This document shows, one piece after another, positions 24,180 through 36,949 of a stretch of DNA of 36,949 nt; within the stretch, counting starts at the first letter, position 1, and each line of letters begins with the position of its first letter. A model generated the notes under the pieces. It was not told where the DNA came from. It ran no database searches and was given only the letters and a program-made list of their open reading frames with translations. Source of the stretch: a virus; the IMG/VR virus record IMGVR_UViG_3300020180_000007, positions 1 through 36,949 of that record. One strand, 5' to 3'. A program made the translations under genes and the position numbers.

Positions 24180-25660
24180 TGACTGACTCCAATGACCTGC
24201 CCCTTGTTGTCGGCTCGGCGACCTTCCGGCGCAAGGTCGGCGACATGGTGCGTGAAAGCGCGTCGGGCGTTCGACGCATCCTCTGGTTGGGCGATTCTCG
24301 ATCCACACAGAACACGTTCTCTTCTGGGGGCGTGACCACGATCCAACTGGCTCTTGGCGGAGTGAACCGCAACCTGCCGGAATCAACGATCGTGTCCGGC
24401 ACCAACACACCTTCATCCCCCCCGTTCATCTCCGGGTACTGGGGCGCAAACATCATTGGTGGGTTGAGCACCTCATTGGTGTGCACTGGTCAAAAGACGC
24501 TTCCCCAGCACGTCTCCTATGCACTGGTGAGACGGACGCCCCCCGTCAGTGGCACAAATGGCATGTACTGTTCCTTTGATCCGCGGATGACGCGAGCCTC
24601 GGGAGCTGGCCACATCGCCGATCGCGGCAGCCGTACGCTCTGGGATATGTCGGCAACCATGGGCCTGGACGCGTTCTGCATCAGGAACCCTCTCAATGAT
24701 CCCACGCTGCAATTGCGGTGGTACCGAAAGACAGTCGGCGCCGTCACCACCTCGTCGGCAACCCTGCTCCAGACCCTCACCGCAACCGGAACCGACCTGG
24801 CAAACGCGGTGTTCGACTGCGAGAAGTTGTCGTTCACCGGGCTGACTGTGCCCCCGCTGGGGGAGATGGGCCTGGGGATGTTCAACACCACCGGCTCAAA
24901 TGCAATCGAGATGATCGGGTTTCGCGCCACCCAGCCCACGAAGCAGTATGGGCTGTGCTCGGTGCCGATGGGCGCGGGCGGGTATGCCTGCACGAGTTTC
25001 GGCACGTCGCATTCGGAATGCTTTCCGATCCTGCGCACGATGGGTCCATACGCGGCCATTGTCATCTCCACGGAGCTGAACGATTGTTTCGGGGCGCTGC
25101 TCCCCGCGGCGACTTTCAAGACCAATCTCCGTGCACTCACAGCGCTGGCCCGGGCATGGGTCAACGACCCAACCATCCCTGTCATCTATCTGCGGTACAC
25201 GCCGCACGGCACCAACTTTGACTCAGCAGCCACCGCAGATCGGACCGCCCTCTGGCAGTCGTATGGAGGAGTCGGCGAGGAGCTGTCGCAGGAGGACCCC
25301 AATTTCGGGATGTGCAACTCGCTTCCATTCCTGGAGGCAACTGGATTCAATCCGACCGATTCCTACTTCACCGGCCTGAGTGATGGTGGGGTGTGGGCAT
25401 CCGCCAGCACCTACACGACGTCGCAGTACGCGCTGCACGGGGGCACCTACTGGCGACCGACGGTGACAACGATCGCGGGCGAAGAGCCGGGCAGTCACGA
25501 GAAATGGCTATGGATCGGCCACTGGGCACCGGCAGACCCGTCGCACCCAAGACCGCGTGCGATGCTGATGTGCGCGGATATGTTCGTCGAGTTTCTGCAG
25601 GAGTGCCGCGGCTTCACGGCTGGGCGTCGCTCCGCTCCCAAGTCGATTCTGCCGCTCTGA
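24179..25660 (+). CDS. SGNH/GDSL hydrolase-like tail protein
   Basis: 493 residues from ATG 24179. Block I GDS is at 38-40 (ILWLGDSRS), a block III-like STELNDC lies near residue 300 and DPSH at 453-456 provides the Asp-His pair of block V, so the catalytic serine, asparagine and Asp/His are all present. SGNH enzymes on phage tails remove acetyl groups from host surface polysaccharides. It is the last gene of the structural operon, a typical place for a host-recognition protein. Its first 40 codons are repeated, inverted, in the gene at 26357-26740. Confidence 0.75.
   Translation: MTDSNDLPLVVGSATFRRKVGDMVRESASGVRRILWLGDSRSTQNTFSSGGVTTIQLALGGVNRNLPESTIVSGTNTPSSPPFISGYWGANIIGGLSTSLVCTGQKTLPQHVSYALVRRTPPVSGTNGMYCSFDPRMTRASGAGHIADRGSRTLWDMSATMGLDAFCIRNPLNDPTLQLRWYRKTVGAVTTSSATLLQTLTATGTDLANAVFDCEKLSFTGLTVPPLGEMGLGMFNTTGSNAIEMIGFRATQPTKQYGLCSVPMGAGGYACTSFGTSHSECFPILRTMGPYAAIVISTELNDCFGALLPAATFKTNLRALTALARAWVNDPTIPVIYLRYTPHGTNFDSAATADRTALWQSYGGVGEELSQEDPNFGMCNSLPFLEATGFNPTDSYFTGLSDGGVWASASTYTTSQYALHGGTYWRPTVTTIAGEEPGSHEKWLWIGHWAPADPSHPRPRAMLMCADMFVEFLQECRGFTAGRRSAPKSILPL
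24188..24308. repeat. Inverted repeat, plus-strand copy (partner 26638-26725)
   Basis: The 121 bases encoding SNDLPLVVGS.TFR...SGVRRILW.GDSRST are repeated at high identity on the minus strand at 26725-26638, with a 33-base (11-codon) deletion in the latter. Both copies lie at the start of a gene and in the same reading frame, so recombination between them would invert about 2.3 kb and exchange the downstream parts of the two genes in frame. Confidence 0.8.
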
Positions 25661-26360: not shown

Positions 26361-26740
26361 CGGTCGTTCCCGTCGCTTCCGAGTCCAGCGGTGATGCGCG
26401 TGACGGTGGCGTCGAACGCGACGATGTCGTCGAGGAGACCGCGGAAGTCGGCGTTGATGTCGGTGTCGGGGTCGGTGTCCATCTTTCCGGCAAGGGAGAG
26501 GACGCGAGCATCATCGGCCGTGGCGATCCCGAGCGCGGTGCGGGCTTCGGCGATGGAGAGGAGGACGCGAGCATCTTCCGCCGTGGCGATCCCGAGGCGC
26601 AGTGCGAGCTTCGGCGATGGAGATGGCAACGTGCTCGGTGTGGATCTGGAATCGCCGAACCAGAGGATGCGTCGAACTCCCGACCGGAAGGTCAGCGAGC
26701 CGACAACGAGGGGCAGGTCATTGGAGAGCCGATCGCTCAT
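26357..26740 (-). CDS. Chimeric protein: inverted copy of the SGNH N-terminus plus repeats, 127 aa
   Basis: ATG 26740. Residues 5-38 (SNDLPLVVGSLTFRSGVRRILW.GDSRST) are nearly the same as residues 4-44 of the SGNH tail protein, minus 11 residues. The rest is different: it contains two copies of LGIATA(E/D)DARVL, from a direct DNA repeat of about 65 bp (around 26493-26630), and an acidic C-terminus. The catalytic GDS is kept but the other SGNH blocks are absent, so it is not an enzyme by itself. It may be a remnant, a decoy or one state of an invertible cassette. Confidence 0.6.
   Translation of the reverse strand: MSDRLSNDLPLVVGSLTFRSGVRRILWFGDSRSTPSTLPSPSPKLALRLGIATAEDARVLLSIAEARTALGIATADDARVLSLAGKMDTDPDTDINADFRGLLDDIVAFDATVTRITAGLGSDGNDR
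26638..26725. repeat. Inverted repeat, minus-strand copy (partner 24188-24308)
   Basis: Reverse-complement copy of the start of the SGNH gene, 88 bases, differing by a 33-base deletion and scattered substitutions. Confidence 0.8.
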
Positions 26741-30414: not shown

Positions 30415-30813
30415 ATGCGACCATACGCCGAACACAGCACGGAAGCGAGCATGAATGGTGCTGTGCGTAGTGCTTTCGGGCGTTCACCCGACGCCGCGGC
30501 CGAGGCTCGATCAGCCGCATCCATGATCAGCGATCAGCCTCCACCGGAGCCGGCGGAGCATGCTGGCACCCCGACGACCCCTCCTCCCGCAGGGGGCGGC
30601 GGCGTCACAACGCCTCGCCCCCTCACCGTCTCCTTCCACCACCGCCGGCGAACGCGCAGCGCCGGCGGGGTTCCATCCCGCGCAGCAAGCGAGGCCACTC
30701 ATGCGGTTTCTGGCTTGGATCCTGCCCTTTTTCATCGGAGATCAGTTCCCCCCGGACTGACCCTTCTCACGCCGCGTCCGTGGAACACGGACGCGGCGCC
30801 CTATGCGGGGTAG
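30415..30813 (+). CDS. Doubtful ORF, 132 aa, disordered
   Basis: GAGG lies six bases before ATG 30415 and an operator-like dyad is just upstream, but the product is Pro/Ala/Arg-rich with no structure, and the frame runs through the hairpin and into the tRNA. The first 60 codons might be translated. It is listed because the stretch 30415-30700 has no better gene. Confidence 0.3.
   Translation: MRPYAEHSTEASMNGAVRSAFGRSPDAAAEARSAASMISDQPPPEPAEHAGTPTTPPPAGGGGVTTPRPLTVSFHHRRRTRSAGGVPSRAASEATHAVSGLDPALFHRRSVPPGLTLLTPRPWNTDAAPYAG
30701..30760 (+). CDS. Micro-ORF: 19-residue hydrophobic peptide
   Basis: ATG 30701 with GAGG six bases upstream. The peptide MRFLAWILPFFIGDQFPPD is a single short membrane-type helix. 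It lies just before the hairpin and tRNA-Trp. It could be a small toxin-like or regulatory peptide; evidence is only the ribosome site and composition. Confidence 0.35.
   Translation: MRFLAWILPFFIGDQFPPD
30771..30797 (+). terminator. Perfect 12-bp hairpin before the tRNA
   Basis: GCCGCGTCCGTG (30771-30782) pairs with CACGGACGCGGC (30786-30797) over a GAA loop. No T-run follows. It may insulate the tRNA from upstream transcription or act in processing its 5' end, which begins seven bases later. Confidence 0.65.
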
Positions 30814-30875
30814 AGCAGCAGCAGCTCACCGGCCTCCAAGGCCGGAGGTCGCAGGTGCGAGTCCTGCCCCCGCGT
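30804..30875 (+). tRNA. tRNA-Trp (anticodon CCA)
   Basis: 72 bases fold into a cloverleaf. The acceptor TGCGGGG pairs with CCCCGCG (30868-30874), the first pair being T-G. D stem GAGC/GCTC, anticodon stem CCGGC/GCCGG with loop CTCCAAG (anticodon 30836-30838), variable loop AGGTC, T stem GCAGG/CCTGC. The CACCGG.CTCCAA core matches bacterial tRNA-Trp. Oddities: the D loop AGCAGCA lacks the GG pair, the T loop is TGCGAGT instead of TTCGAnT, and CCA is not encoded. These weaken the D loop-T loop contact, so it may be degenerating or need special partners. CCA reads UGG only, so it is not a UGA-recoding tRNA. Confidence 0.8.
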
Positions 30876-30880
30876 TTCAT

Positions 30881-32439: not shown

Positions 32440-33102
32440 TTGAACCAAGAACAGATTGCCCGAGTGGCCTACGAAGTGAACAGGGCCTATTCCCAAGCGC
32501 TTGGCGACGCAAGCCAGCAGACATGGGAAGACGCGCCGCAGTGGCAGCGTGATTCGGCCATGCGGGGCGTGAAGCTGCACACCGAGAACCCCAACGCCAG
32601 CGCTTCGGCCATCTATGAAATCTTGGTGGCGCAGAAGGTTGCGGATGGGTGGGTCTACGGTCCCAAAAAGAAGATCGACCTCAAGCAGCACCCTTGCATG
32701 GTGCCGTTCGATGATTTGCCCGAGGCGTGGCGGGCCAAGGACTACATCTTCCGAGGCGTCGTTCACGCGCTGGCACATTCGCCCGCCACGGCGGCCACTG
32801 ACGCCGAACTCATTGCCGCTCGCAAGCGATGCGACATCGCCATGATTACGACCACACACCCCCGGATGCTGACCCTCCGTGAAGTCGCAGCCGCGCTCGG
32901 GCTTCGAAACGAGAAATCCGTGAAGGCGCTTGTGAACGAAGGCCACCTGCGCGGCATCAATATCGGCGCAACGCCGGGACGCGCAACCTGGAGAGTCGAG
33001 TCTGACGAGCTGGAGCGATTCATCCTGTGCCGCAGCACTCAAGAGATCGCACGCCGACCCCGGCGCCGCTCACCTTCCCGAGGTGTCACGCAATTCGTTT
33101 GA
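32440..33102 (+). CDS. RyR domain - excisionase-type HTH fusion protein
   Basis: TTG 32440 with AAAGGA seven bases upstream; 220 residues. Residues 3-112 match the RyR (ryanodine receptor) domain: QIARVAYEVNRAYSQALGD, PQWQRDSAMRGVKLH, QKVADGWVYGPKKK, HPCMVPFDDLPEAWRAKD, FRGVVHAL. Residues 143-196 form a MerR/HTH_17-type module (TLREVAAALGLRNEKSVKALVNEGHL...WRVESDELERFI) as in excisionases. RyR domains in phages and bacteria bind nucleotide-like ligands or have unknown roles; here the partner domain suggests a DNA-binding regulator with a sensing module. It lies upstream of the operator and integration operon. Confidence 0.85.
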   Translation: MNQEQIARVAYEVNRAYSQALGDASQQTWEDAPQWQRDSAMRGVKLHTENPNASASAIYEILVAQKVADGWVYGPKKKIDLKQHPCMVPFDDLPEAWRAKDYIFRGVVHALAHSPATAATDAELIAARKRCDIAMITTTHPRMLTLREVAAALGLRNEKSVKALVNEGHLRGINIGATPGRATWRVESDELERFILCRSTQEIARRPRRRSPSRGVTQFV

Positions 33103-33581: not shown

Positions 33582-33871
33582 CGACACCATTTCAGGAGTC
33601 GATCGACCGCATCGCCAACCGCGGCGGCGCGGTCGATTCTCGGGACCTGCTCCAATTCACCGAGGCGCTGCGAGACGAGCTGAGCGGCGTTGTGACCAGG
33701 ATCCGACAGCTGGAGATCGATCTGCGGCGAGACCTCGGGTGTAAAGGGGATCGGAGCATGGATCTGGAGTTGCTGGACGAGGTGCTCGATCGTGAGATCC
33801 GTGCCGCGAAGGCGGCAGTCACACCGCAGGTTCCGTTCTCGGGGTTGAACACCAAGGGAGTCGACCAATGA
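33578..33871 (+). CDS. Coiled-coil protein, 97 aa (paralogue family, member 2)
   Basis: ATG 33578 overlaps the previous stop, with AAAGGA upstream. The sequence IANRGGAVDSRDLLQFTEALRDEL then RIRQLEIDLRRDL...RSMDLE...EREIRAAKAAVTP is nearly the same as that of the following gene, so the two are tandem duplicates. A predicted coiled coil suggests dimers. Function unknown. Confidence 0.65.
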   Translation: MTTPFQESIDRIANRGGAVDSRDLLQFTEALRDELSGVVTRIRQLEIDLRRDLGCKGDRSMDLELLDEVLDREIRAAKAAVTPQVPFSGLNTKGVDQ

Positions 33872-34194
33872 CCCAGATCCTGGCTTCGATCGACCGTGCG
33901 GTATCGCGTCGCAACACTGAGGCGCTGCATTTCCTGTGTGTTGATCTCGTGCTGATCGCCAACCGCGGCGGCGTGGTCGACGCTCGGGACCTGGTCCAGC
34001 TCGCCGAGGCGATGCGGGAGGAGATGCTCGTTGTGGATGCGAGGATCCGACAGGTGGAGAGCGATCTGCGGCGAGACCTCAAGTGTGCACAGGATCGGAG
34101 CATGGATCTGGAGTGGCGGGTCGAGGTGCTCGAGCGTGAGATCCGTGCCGCGAAGGCGGCAGTCACACCGACAGTCCAGGAGGAGCAGCGCTGA
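33868..34194 (+). CDS. Coiled-coil protein, 108 aa (paralogue family, member 3)
   Basis: ATG 33868 overlaps the previous stop, with AGGGA upstream. Paralogue of the preceding gene (IANRGGVVDARDLVQLAEAM, RIRQVESDLRRDL, RSMDLEWRVEVLEREIRAAKAA). The N-terminal 25 residues differ. It is followed directly by the excisionase-like gene. A role in integration complexes is possible from position only. Confidence 0.65.
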   Translation: MTQILASIDRAVSRRNTEALHFLCVDLVLIANRGGVVDARDLVQLAEAMREEMLVVDARIRQVESDLRRDLKCAQDRSMDLEWRVEVLEREIRAAKAAVTPTVQEEQR

Positions 34195-34493
34195 TGTCGT
34201 CGAGATCATCCACCATCCAGATCCCGCCCTCCGATTCTCTCCCACTGGAGCTGGCGGTGGAGGACCGCGACCTTCTCATGTGGGACGCGGAGCGGCTGGC
34301 CAGGCACATGCTGGTCAGCGTGACGAAGCTCGCAGAGATGCGACGTGCCGGGCTGATCATCGATCCCGCCATCGAGGTCGGCCGGATCCTCCGGTGGAGC
34401 CGAGCGGAGCTCGAGGCCTGGGCCCTCGCTGGTAGTCCTCCTGCCGACGATTGGCGCCGCATGCGAGCCACCACCGGGAGGACCCGCAAGTGA
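34194..34493 (+). CDS. Excisionase-like (AlpA/HTH_17) recombination directionality factor
   Basis: 99 residues; its start overlaps the previous stop (TGATG). DRDLLMWDAERLARHMLVSVTKLAEMRRAGLI followed by VGRILRWSRAELEAWALAG is the excisionase-type winged helix. Such small proteins bend attP and turn an integrase toward excision. It lies immediately upstream of the integrase and overlaps it (GTGA), so the two are made together. Confidence 0.8.
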   Translation: MSSRSSTIQIPPSDSLPLELAVEDRDLLMWDAERLARHMLVSVTKLAEMRRAGLIIDPAIEVGRILRWSRAELEAWALAGSPPADDWRRMRATTGRTRK

Positions 34494-36298
34494 GCGCGAA
34501 GCGTCGCACCAGAGACGGCAAGGCCTACCGCCTCAGCGGGCGTGAGGACGGCCCCTGGTACGCCGACGCCTACGACCAGCTTCGGCGGCGCTGGATGCGG
34601 CGCTCAACTCGGGTGACCCATCAGCGACCGGCCAATCGGATTGCGTCGCGGTGGCTGGAGGAGGGCGAGGCGATGGCGGCTGGTGCGTCGTCGCAGCCGG
34701 CGGGATCCCGGGTCGACGTCGGAGTCGCCGAAAACGGCACACCGCTGTCACCGATTCTCGCCGCGCTCGCCAAGTTCATCGACGCGAAGCGCCGCTCGGA
34801 GTCAGCCCCATCACCACGGCACCTCCAGGAGACGCGGCGCCGCCTCGAGCGGGTGATCCTCGCTGTCAAGTGGGAGCATGTCGCGGACATCGAGAGGGAG
34901 AAGCTCCTCGAGGGGATCGAGCAGGTGGCCACGGAGTCGGAAGCCACCTTCTCCGCCCGCACAAAGAACGCCTACCGGGCGGCATGGCGCTCTTTCACGT
35001 CGTGGCTCGTGGACACCGACCGTGCCCCGCTCGACCCGCTGCGCCGCCTGGCGAAGTGGCGGGTGGACGGCACCGAGACCTTCCGGCGCCTGGCCTACAC
35101 CCGGGCCGACGTCGCGAAGCTGATTGCCCACACGACCCGCAGCGCTCCGGCGTTCGATCTGCCTGGATCGGATCGGGCGATGCTCTATCTCGTCGCCCTG
35201 GCCACCGGCTTCAGGGTGAGCGAGCTGGCGAGCCTCACCCCCTCCTCCTTTGATCTCGCCGCGCAGACGCCCACGGTCACACTGCGCGGACGGAACGCCA
35301 AGAACAATCGCGACGTCGAGCAGCCGCTTGTGCCTCGAGGACTGCCGGAGATGCGTGTGGTGGTCGAGCGGCTCAGGGTGTGGCTGCGTGACCGCGACAG
35401 GCACACTCCATGCTGGCGGATGGCTGACTGGGCGTACGCGGCGACGATGCTGCGGCTGGACCTGGCTGCGGCCGGGGTCGATCTGCCCCGTGGCGTGTAC
35501 GACCGTGCTGACTTCCATTCGTTGCGTGGCACGCTCGGCACATGGCTGGCCCGTGCCGGCGTCTCGACGCAGTTCGCCCAGCGGATTCTGCGTCACAGCG
35601 ACCCAGCGTTGACGGCCAAGTACTACACCAGGCTCGGCGCCGAGGAGATGGCTTCCGGCCTCGACCAGATTGTCCAGACCCCATTGCTTGAGGAGCAGTC
35701 ACTGATGACCGAGGAGCCGACGATGGCAGCGCGTGGCGAGGAGTGTCGAGGCGATCAGCCAGCACCAGAATCAGCGCATGAGGACGGATCAGTCAGTAGT
35801 GAGCGCTGCGCAATTAGTGCGCAGCCTGACAACGCCCGACGAGTCCCGATACGCCCCGATACGACGAGTGAGGGTTTCGATAGGGGTGCGGCCCCGGGGT
35901 CTGATGATGGTGCACGCGGTTCGCTCGCGAGTCCCGACGAGTCCCGACAAGTCCCGATGAGTCCCGATACGACGAATGCCCCGTCAAGGACTCGAACCTT
36001 GAACCCGCTGATTAAGAGTGCGCGACCTACTGATTCTAACTCAGTGGCCCAGCAGGTCCTTGCGCATGATGATGGCGCCAGCGCTGCGCACATTGTGCGC
36101 AGCGCTGCAACGGACGCGGAAGATCGCCGCGAACCCCCCTTCCTACCCGACGATGAGGTCGATCTCGCTGAGGCCCTGGGGCTGGCGGAGGCTGAACTCG
36201 GGCGACTCATCGAGACCGACCTCGACGCCGTCACCCGCTCCCCCGCCGGAGTGCGGCAGGCAGCCGTCACCCGCTCCGCACGGGGAGGTGAGGCATGA
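34490..36298 (+). CDS. int: Tyrosine integrase with attP in its 3' coding region
   Basis: GTG 34490 with GGGAGGA at 34476-34482, overlapping the excisionase stop; 602 residues. A SAM-like core-binding domain (about 85-190) is followed by the catalytic domain with R242 (TGFRVSEL), H343-x-x-R346 (HSLR), H369 (LRHSDPA) and catalytic Y378 (KYYTRL). Residues 395-602 are an unusual disordered, acidic extension. Within it, residues about 496-510 (NAPSRTRTLNPLIKS) are the antisense translation of a tRNA-Lys 3' half, the attP core, and the preceding PDES/PDTT segments are encoded by 10-bp repeats. Integration would replace the last about 90 residues by host-encoded ones or a stop. Confidence 0.93.
   Translation: MSAKRRTRDGKAYRLSGREDGPWYADAYDQLRRRWMRRSTRVTHQRPANRIASRWLEEGEAMAAGASSQPAGSRVDVGVAENGTPLSPILAALAKFIDAKRRSESAPSPRHLQETRRRLERVILAVKWEHVADIEREKLLEGIEQVATESEATFSARTKNAYRAAWRSFTSWLVDTDRAPLDPLRRLAKWRVDGTETFRRLAYTRADVAKLIAHTTRSAPAFDLPGSDRAMLYLVALATGFRVSELASLTPSSFDLAAQTPTVTLRGRNAKNNRDVEQPLVPRGLPEMRVVVERLRVWLRDRDRHTPCWRMADWAYAATMLRLDLAAAGVDLPRGVYDRADFHSLRGTLGTWLARAGVSTQFAQRILRHSDPALTAKYYTRLGAEEMASGLDQIVQTPLLEEQSLMTEEPTMAARGEECRGDQPAPESAHEDGSVSSERCAISAQPDNARRVPIRPDTTSEGFDRGAAPGSDDGARGSLASPDESRQVPMSPDTTNAPSRTRTLNPLIKSARPTDSNSVAQQVLAHDDGASAAHIVRSAATDAEDRREPPFLPDDEVDLAEALGLAEAELGRLIETDLDAVTRSPAGVRQAAVTRSARGGEA
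35805..36107. other. attP: attP region: dyads and arm-type repeats around the core
   Basis: Two dyads of the form GCTGCGCA-5-TGCGCAGC flank the core: 35805-35825 (8-bp arms) and 36079-36107 (12-bp arms). Between the left dyad and the core are direct 10-bp repeats: about three at 35833-35862 and four in perfect tandem at 35931-35970 (GTCCCGAYRA/GTCCCGATAC). The 10-bp period places them on one face of the helix, as expected for integrase arm sites. A further hairpin ACTGA-7-TCAGT lies at 36029-36045. Confidence 0.75.
35977..36019 (-). other. attP core: 3' half of a tRNA-Lys(CUU) gene
   Basis: Read on the minus strand, 43 bases match tRNA-Lys from position 31 to 73: A, loop CTCTTAA (anticodon CTT), TCAGC, GGGTT, T arm CAAGG-TTCGAGT-CCTTG, acceptor strand ACGGGGC and discriminator A. 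No 5' half follows upstream (the sequence changes to CGCGC), so it is not a tRNA gene. Phages that integrate at tRNA genes carry just such a 3' end to restore the host gene. Confidence 0.85.
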
Positions 36299-36816
36299 AG
36301 AGCACCGCCACGCAGTCTGTCGCGGTGGCCCACGCAGCGGCGAACCCACTCGACGTCGAGACCAACGCCCACGATGCCTCGCCCGGGCCGAAGCCGTCGG
36401 CGAAGTCGGCAGCGCGGCCAGGCAAGCCCCACCGCATCTGCGGCATGTGCCGATGCTTCGAGTGGGGCCGGTCGAGGACCAGATGCCCGCATTGCGGCGC
36501 CATCTGGGGAGTCGGACTCGAGCCACACATCGCGAGCGAGGCGATGGTGGAAGTGATCCGGTCCGGCGTGCTCTGGCGATTCCGCATGGTCGCCGACGGC
36601 ACCATCGGCGTGATGATCGCCGAGTCGACGGGCCGGATGTCCATCGTCTTTCCGACGAGGCATTCAGGGGGCCGCCGATCTGAGGCTTTGGGGTGGACGC
36701 AGCCGAGGTGGTTTTATTCCTCCTGCGAGCTGGCGTCCGGCACGCAGGAGCGATTCCAGCTCCTGCAGGACATCGTCGAGATCGGGCCGCCCGCCGAGAT
36801 CGGTGGTGCAGGATGA
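36295..36816 (+). CDS. Zinc-ribbon protein, copy A, 173 aa
   Basis: ATG 36295 overlaps the integrase stop. An Ala/Pro-rich N-terminus is followed by CGMCRCFEWGRSRTRCPHCG, a four-cysteine ribbon, then about 110 residues of unknown fold. It is a tandem duplicate of the gene that follows (36813 to 412): the ribbon and C-terminus are nearly identical in DNA, but residues about 97-145 differ. It lies after the integrase, and would be near one prophage end. Confidence 0.8.
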   Translation: MKSTATQSVAVAHAAANPLDVETNAHDASPGPKPSAKSAARPGKPHRICGMCRCFEWGRSRTRCPHCGAIWGVGLEPHIASEAMVEVIRSGVLWRFRMVADGTIGVMIAESTGRMSIVFPTRHSGGRRSEALGWTQPRWFYSSCELASGTQERFQLLQDIVEIGPPAEIGGAG

Positions 36817-36949
36817 GGCACGACGTCGAGACCAACGCCCATGATGCCTCGCCCACACCAAAGCCGTCGGCGAAGTCGGCAGCGCGGCCAGGCAAGCCCC
36901 ACCGCATCTGCGGCATGTGCAGATGCTTCGACTGGGGCCGGTCGAGGAC
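36813..36949 (+). CDS. Zinc-ribbon protein, copy B (5' part; continues at base 1)
   Basis: ATG 36813 overlaps the stop of copy A (ATGA). Its first residues (RHDVETNAHDASPTPKPSAKSAARPGKPHRICGMCRCFDWGRSR in outline) repeat the same region of copy A with few changes. The frame runs off the window and continues in the same register at base 1 (through the 60-base overlap), ending at 412. Confidence 0.8.
   Translation, partial: MRHDVETNAHDASPTPKPSAKSAARPGKPHRICGMCRCFDWGRSR
36890..36949. repeat. Terminal direct repeat (right copy)
   Basis: Identical to 1-60; see the left copy. Confidence 0.9.

Follow-up and report, generated by a model that had tools for sequence, protein, structure and literature searches.

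What becomes of an integrase gene when the site at which its product recombines lies within its own reading frame? This question is raised by int, the tyrosine integrase gene of the phage recorded in IMG/VR as IMGVR_UViG_3300020180_000007, of which the whole stretch of 36,949 bases was analysed here (the window). A first-pass annotation of this stretch had placed the phage attachment site, attP, inside int, such that integration would split the gene and separate a C-terminal tail from the enzyme. The split is seen at the junctions of a related prophage, and the best explanation, to which we assign a probability of roughly 0.6, appears to be that the tail is an integration-phase module removed on lysogeny.

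In the window integrase, Pfam Phage_integrase (PF00589) covers residues 207-382 (E 3.2e-17), and R242, K271, H343, R346, H369 and Y379 are invariant across relatives, as expected of a tyrosine recombinase. Approximately 118 codons past the catalytic Y379, the attP core is read in frame as NAPSRTRTLNPLIKS (residues 496-510). It matches the tRNA-Lys genes of two Gemmataceae genomes at 43 of 43 bases (E 2e-21), which bears out the 43-bp tRNA-Lys 3' half reported on the minus strand in the first pass. When the core is extended by the host anticodon-stem bases, exact matches are limited to four of 84,980 species genomes, each lying in a tRNA-Lys(CTT) gene of Planctomycetia or Gemmataceae, and a planctomycete host is therefore likely; extended by the phage-side GCGC, it has no exact match among the 84,980 genomes. 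A terminal repeat of 60 bp in the record matches a circular or permuted genome, so that the attP form is intact in the window. The core has the position described for phage Mx8, namely within int and after the catalytic domain. A search of Rfam near the core returned only animal microRNA models far under their cut-offs, which we took as chance.

The consequence of integration can be read from a related prophage (G018:C23, contig CALMPF010000023.1), found in a Planctomycetia genome by the prophage search that the first-pass annotation had recommended. It occupies one of the four tRNA-Lys(CTT) loci mentioned above, and its integrase, 41-43% identical to that of the window, runs antisense into the intact host tRNA-Lys gene and ends in NASSRTRTLNPLIKSQLLYQLS followed by the stop. 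This stop lies eight codons past the core (NPLIKSQLLYQLS and the stop codon), as had been predicted for the prophage form. A second core copy about 41 kb away is followed by phage DNA and matches window positions 35975-36044 at 88.6% over 70 bp, and between the two copies lie homologues of the window's replication, terminase, portal, capsid, excisionase and integrase genes. Once the prophage ends are rejoined, the frame stays open for about 88 codons past the core and overlaps the next gene, in comparison to the eight codons of the integrated form. The attL and attR junctions are situated exactly at the core and not elsewhere, and relatives whose int ends before the core at a separate stop, the pattern named beforehand as speaking against a split gene, were not found. 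A prophage int with a new 3' end taken from host DNA is present in G018 and in many other relatives.

When the window is set against the two G018 junctions, attP and attB are seen to diverge within 1-2 bases past TTAAGAG. Both junctions are consistent with the strand exchange that we infer in the anticodon loop, which is one usual class of crossover sublocation for tRNA-targeting integrases (PMC4383910). The 10-bp repeats and the two matching dyads noticed in the first pass were recovered by our repeat analysis on either side of the core (Table 1), and the dyads have the 11-bp AGCGCTGCGCA in common, a length that was reached in one of 30 shuffles. Across 30 attP forms, the longest repeat common to both arms mostly sits about 100-207 bases before the core (around -150) and 37-90 bases after it (around +55), distances that place the arms in the int linker and in the coding region of the tail. 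The whole attP, comprising left arm, tRNA-derived core and right arm, thus almost certainly resides within the 3' part of int, an anatomy by which integration would split the gene.

The window integrase, with attP inside its frame, belongs to a family of homologous integrases that is present in 120 of 392 sampled Planctomycetota genomes (E 1e-10). Among 56 related integrase frames examined, 38 overlap tRNA genes, including those for Met, Ser, Arg, Lys, Leu, Cys and others. For the 28 elements with a second core copy, rejoining lengthens the frame past the core by a median of 67.5 residues (range 13-90); the corresponding medians are 6 for the integrated forms and 13 for control frames. Contiguous, naturally uncut forms are represented by two sequences, the window and the viral contig L097, whose uninterrupted integrase frame of 550 codons contains a tRNA-Arg 5' part and ends with the tail motif described below. 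At G325:C270 (~27.7-38 kb, L165-L166), two related integrases are arranged in tandem, the upstream one with an in-frame tail, as would result from its fusion to the end of the element next to it. A tblastn search with the window integrase revealed no match in phages at E 1e-5 and only distant recombinases in plasmids; viral scans with one or two window proteins gave no relatives, and a search with the major capsid gene retrieved a fragment of a near-identical phage that does not include int.

Approximately 23 of the tails share the motif L..iv.aWp.LP..ir.Ai.alv, for which Pfam and NCBIfam hold no covering family. A model built from the first ten elements recognises further tails in the int frame; among ~1600 control segments, which included the tail's own frame without affecting the result, the only convincing extra match (G266b) is that element's own tail in another frame of the automatic join. 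Identity within the motif is 0.41/0.52/0.30 at codon positions 1/2/3, with ~0.28 expected by chance, a pattern showing that selection acts on the tail protein. In the AlphaFold2 (AF2) model of the L097 integrase, the recombinase is confidently predicted and its fold matches those of phage, Tn1549 (transposon) and Xer recombinases, while a disordered linker (residues 407-520) is followed by a confident two-helix hairpin at residues 524-548 (predicted local distance difference test, pLDDT, 82-96). A chromosome search detected the motif in 106 of the 392 planctomycete genomes. All but one of the ~160 motif places listed have open frames of at most 313 codons, which could not accommodate a fused integrase, and 22 of the 30 best places directly follow a tRNA piece recognisable with a library of 81 tRNAs only. 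In chromosomes the motif is thus almost always an orphan, and in integrated elements the tail is routinely apart from int. The tail alignment itself was dropped as a query for viral scans, being too variable. In one alignment of the study (A1), four N-terminal residues of a single row were wrong, which leaves the result unchanged.

Free phage DNA encodes the full-length integrase, with its C-terminal tail attached by a disordered linker. Upon recombination with the host tRNA-Lys, strands are exchanged in the anticodon loop and the tRNA is restored; int then stops eight codons past the core, the tail DNA comes to lie at the far end of the prophage, and excision rebuilds the full gene. This anatomy is almost certain, and on it we base a proposal for the function of the tail. 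Since the tail is made as part of Int only in the free form, it is probably there that it works, most likely by promoting the integration complex or by helping to assemble or stabilise it; the prophage enzyme, having lost the tail, would be quieter and work in excision together with the excisionase, so that the structure of int itself would record the direction of the reaction. The family-wide conservation of the tail module makes some role in the integration phase likely, and the peptide shared by related elements suggests a built-in switch between an integrating and a resident form. The tail could in this way control the direction, stability or amount of integrase activity, as supposed in the first pass. 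A broader proposal, for which we consider the odds to be even, is that the integrases throughout Planctomycetota possess a C-terminal helical hairpin, conserved and removable, whose coding sequence lies beyond attP. Taken away or given back by recombination itself, it would act as a directionality and memory switch within a single gene, on in the free and off in the resident element.

Several observations weigh against an integration-phase role of the tail. The window's own tail scores 0.2 bits against the motif model, which rules out its membership of the conserved tail family. By codon usage alone it is weakly coding, two other frames are open over the same positions, and the AF2 model of the window integrase, confident in the catalytic part and disordered at residues 384-554, contains only a low-confidence helix in the tail; the tails of the window and G018 look like a separate or diverged type. 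Some relatives stop soon past the catalytic domain and have no tail, and G071 (L048 / L194-L195, G071:C5, ~38-40 kb) exhibits a tail-like C-terminus in one frame with no recognisable tRNA piece inside. The weak coding signal, the lack of the motif and the few tail-less relatives would all fit a functionless window tail, its frame being open because the attP DNA and a GC-rich sequence are free of stops by chance, and its loss being neutral. We regard this as unlikely because the G018 relative is also open for ~90 codons and overlaps the next gene, and because a tail conserved as protein is kept by most of the family. A neutral tail is least unlikely for the window, where the motif is lacking and coding is weak.

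We also doubt that the tail destabilises or inhibits the integrase of the free phage, with integration producing a stable or active form as for the repressor of mycobacteriophage BPs. The G018 tail, which ends in AA, would be compatible with this, but tail ends are widely variable, it is a folded hairpin that is conserved and not the very C-terminus, and inspection of the tails by eye revealed no common C-terminal degradation tag. Integration might instead act mainly on the operon by uncoupling xis-int from the early genes after int, with the protein change being secondary. Although the window int overlaps the next gene (ATGA), and G018 and two other elements overlap their next frame, most elements have no such overlap and still keep the tail, so that int is not generally coupled to the next gene and this account is improbable. 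It is hardly credible that the tRNA piece is only a relic, with a working attP at some other place, since the nearest relative, despite an integrase identity of only 41-43% and although the junctions were seen there and not in this phage, uses the same core, has a far end that over 70 bp is 88.6% identical to the window, and the core is flanked by arm repeats.

Table 1. Features of the int region (positions in the window; a dot marks features given without strand).
Feature	Position	Strand	Basis
Excisionase-like helix-turn-helix protein, overlaps int start	34194..34493	+	PHROG 66 excisionase, E 2.9e-5; G018 homologue
Tyrosine integrase int, attP form, 602 aa, GTG start	34490..36298	+	Open reading frame (ORF), Pfam, catalytic residues, AF2 model
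Left-arm dyad AGCGCTGCGCA..TGCGCAGC, probable arm-type site in int linker	35802..35825	.	Repeat analysis
Related 10-bp direct repeats, CCCGAYRAGT-like, probable further arm-type sites	35835..35968	+	Repeat analysis
attP core: tRNA-Lys(CTT) 3' part, anticodon loop to discriminator base	35977..36019	-	43/43 match; G018 junctions
Inferred 7-bp overlap region TTAAGAG (anticodon loop)	36012..36018	.	Window compared with both G018 junctions
int tail, 92 codons, parted from int on integration	36020..36295	+	ORF; G018 counterpart of ~88 codons
Right-arm dyad within the tail, probable arm-type site	36079..36107	.	Repeat analysis
Next gene; ATG overlaps int stop (ATGA)	36295..36816	+	ORF list

Terminase, portal, capsid and replication genes of the tailed-phage type are present in the window. 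The excisionase gene that the first-pass annotation had recognised next to int is supported by its PHROG match, and the G018 prophage carries a homologue at the same location with 40% identity. Just upstream of it, a tandem gene pair (33611-33826 / 33955-34170) is 85% identical, and the protein encoded at 32440-33102 consists of a RyR domain followed by a helix-turn-helix domain, a combination unusual for a phage. Downstream of int, related cysteine-rich genes stand in tandem (36295-36816, and 36817-36949 continuing at 1-412); the 60-bp terminal repeat falls inside the second copy, and a longer array may conceivably have collapsed in the assembly. The phage also encodes a tRNA-Trp(CCA) at 30803-30876, with a similar stretch in the G018 prophage (C23:36634-36713, 83.8%). 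Long inverted repeats of 43 and 64 nt at 24187-24325 / 26621-26726 (86-93% complementary, ~2.3 kb apart) possibly reflect a segment of tail genes that inverts or has been duplicated.

Integrases that extend across attP have been described before. In phage Mx8, attP likewise lies within int, which on integration acquires a new 3' end and with it an altered enzyme specificity (PMC6070905); the likeness includes an attP core in the int frame, an excisionase gene overlapping the int start (AF396866) and the exchange of the int 3' end. However, Mx8 Int reaches 11 bits against the family model, a similarity at the superfamily level only, and has no convincing match to the tail model, and Mx8 is one experimental case as compared with a phylum-wide planctomycete family with a shared tail. 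Nearly all of Mx8 Int save the last 30 residues is reportedly needed for integration, a requirement that would be in keeping with a function of the tail. The 'suicidal' integrases of archaeal SSV-type viruses also contain the attachment site in int and are split by integration, but there the split parts the catalytic domain from the N-terminal portion and leaves two inactive halves (PMC8371274). In the window, by contrast, the catalytic domain ends ~115 codons before the core, so that the catalytic part stays whole together with the start of the gene, and the SSV-type marker Phage_integr_3 (PF16795) was not found in the window integrase, where only PF00589 was detected. Mycobacteriophage BPs, with its integration-dependent immunity, resembles the window in having attP inside a gene that is longer in the virus and shorter in the prophage (PMC4557955), although the gene interrupted there is the repressor and not int. 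The tRNA-targeting tyrosine integrases of the Islander set share the tRNA fragment that restores the target gene, but their attP is usually located beside int and not inside it as in the planctomycete elements, and the authors name only Mx8 and SSV as integrases extending across attP (PMC4383910). The planctomycete family is unreported in the literature searched, which comprised a limited library. Its spread in bacteria and the conserved removable tail appear to be new, whereas the basic trick was already known from Mx8 and, in another form, from SSV-type integrases.

Control over the direction of integration is usually credited to a separate excisionase. In the elements described here, the recombination product itself alters the enzyme, reversibly and across a large bacterial family. 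Mx8 and the planctomycete elements represent a milder bacterial form of integrase splitting, which is common among planctomycete elements. Orphan tails beside a tRNA fragment are of practical use for marking where integrated elements have their far ends, and the fusion of int with tRNA sequence explains puzzling tRNA-derived protein ends in databases.
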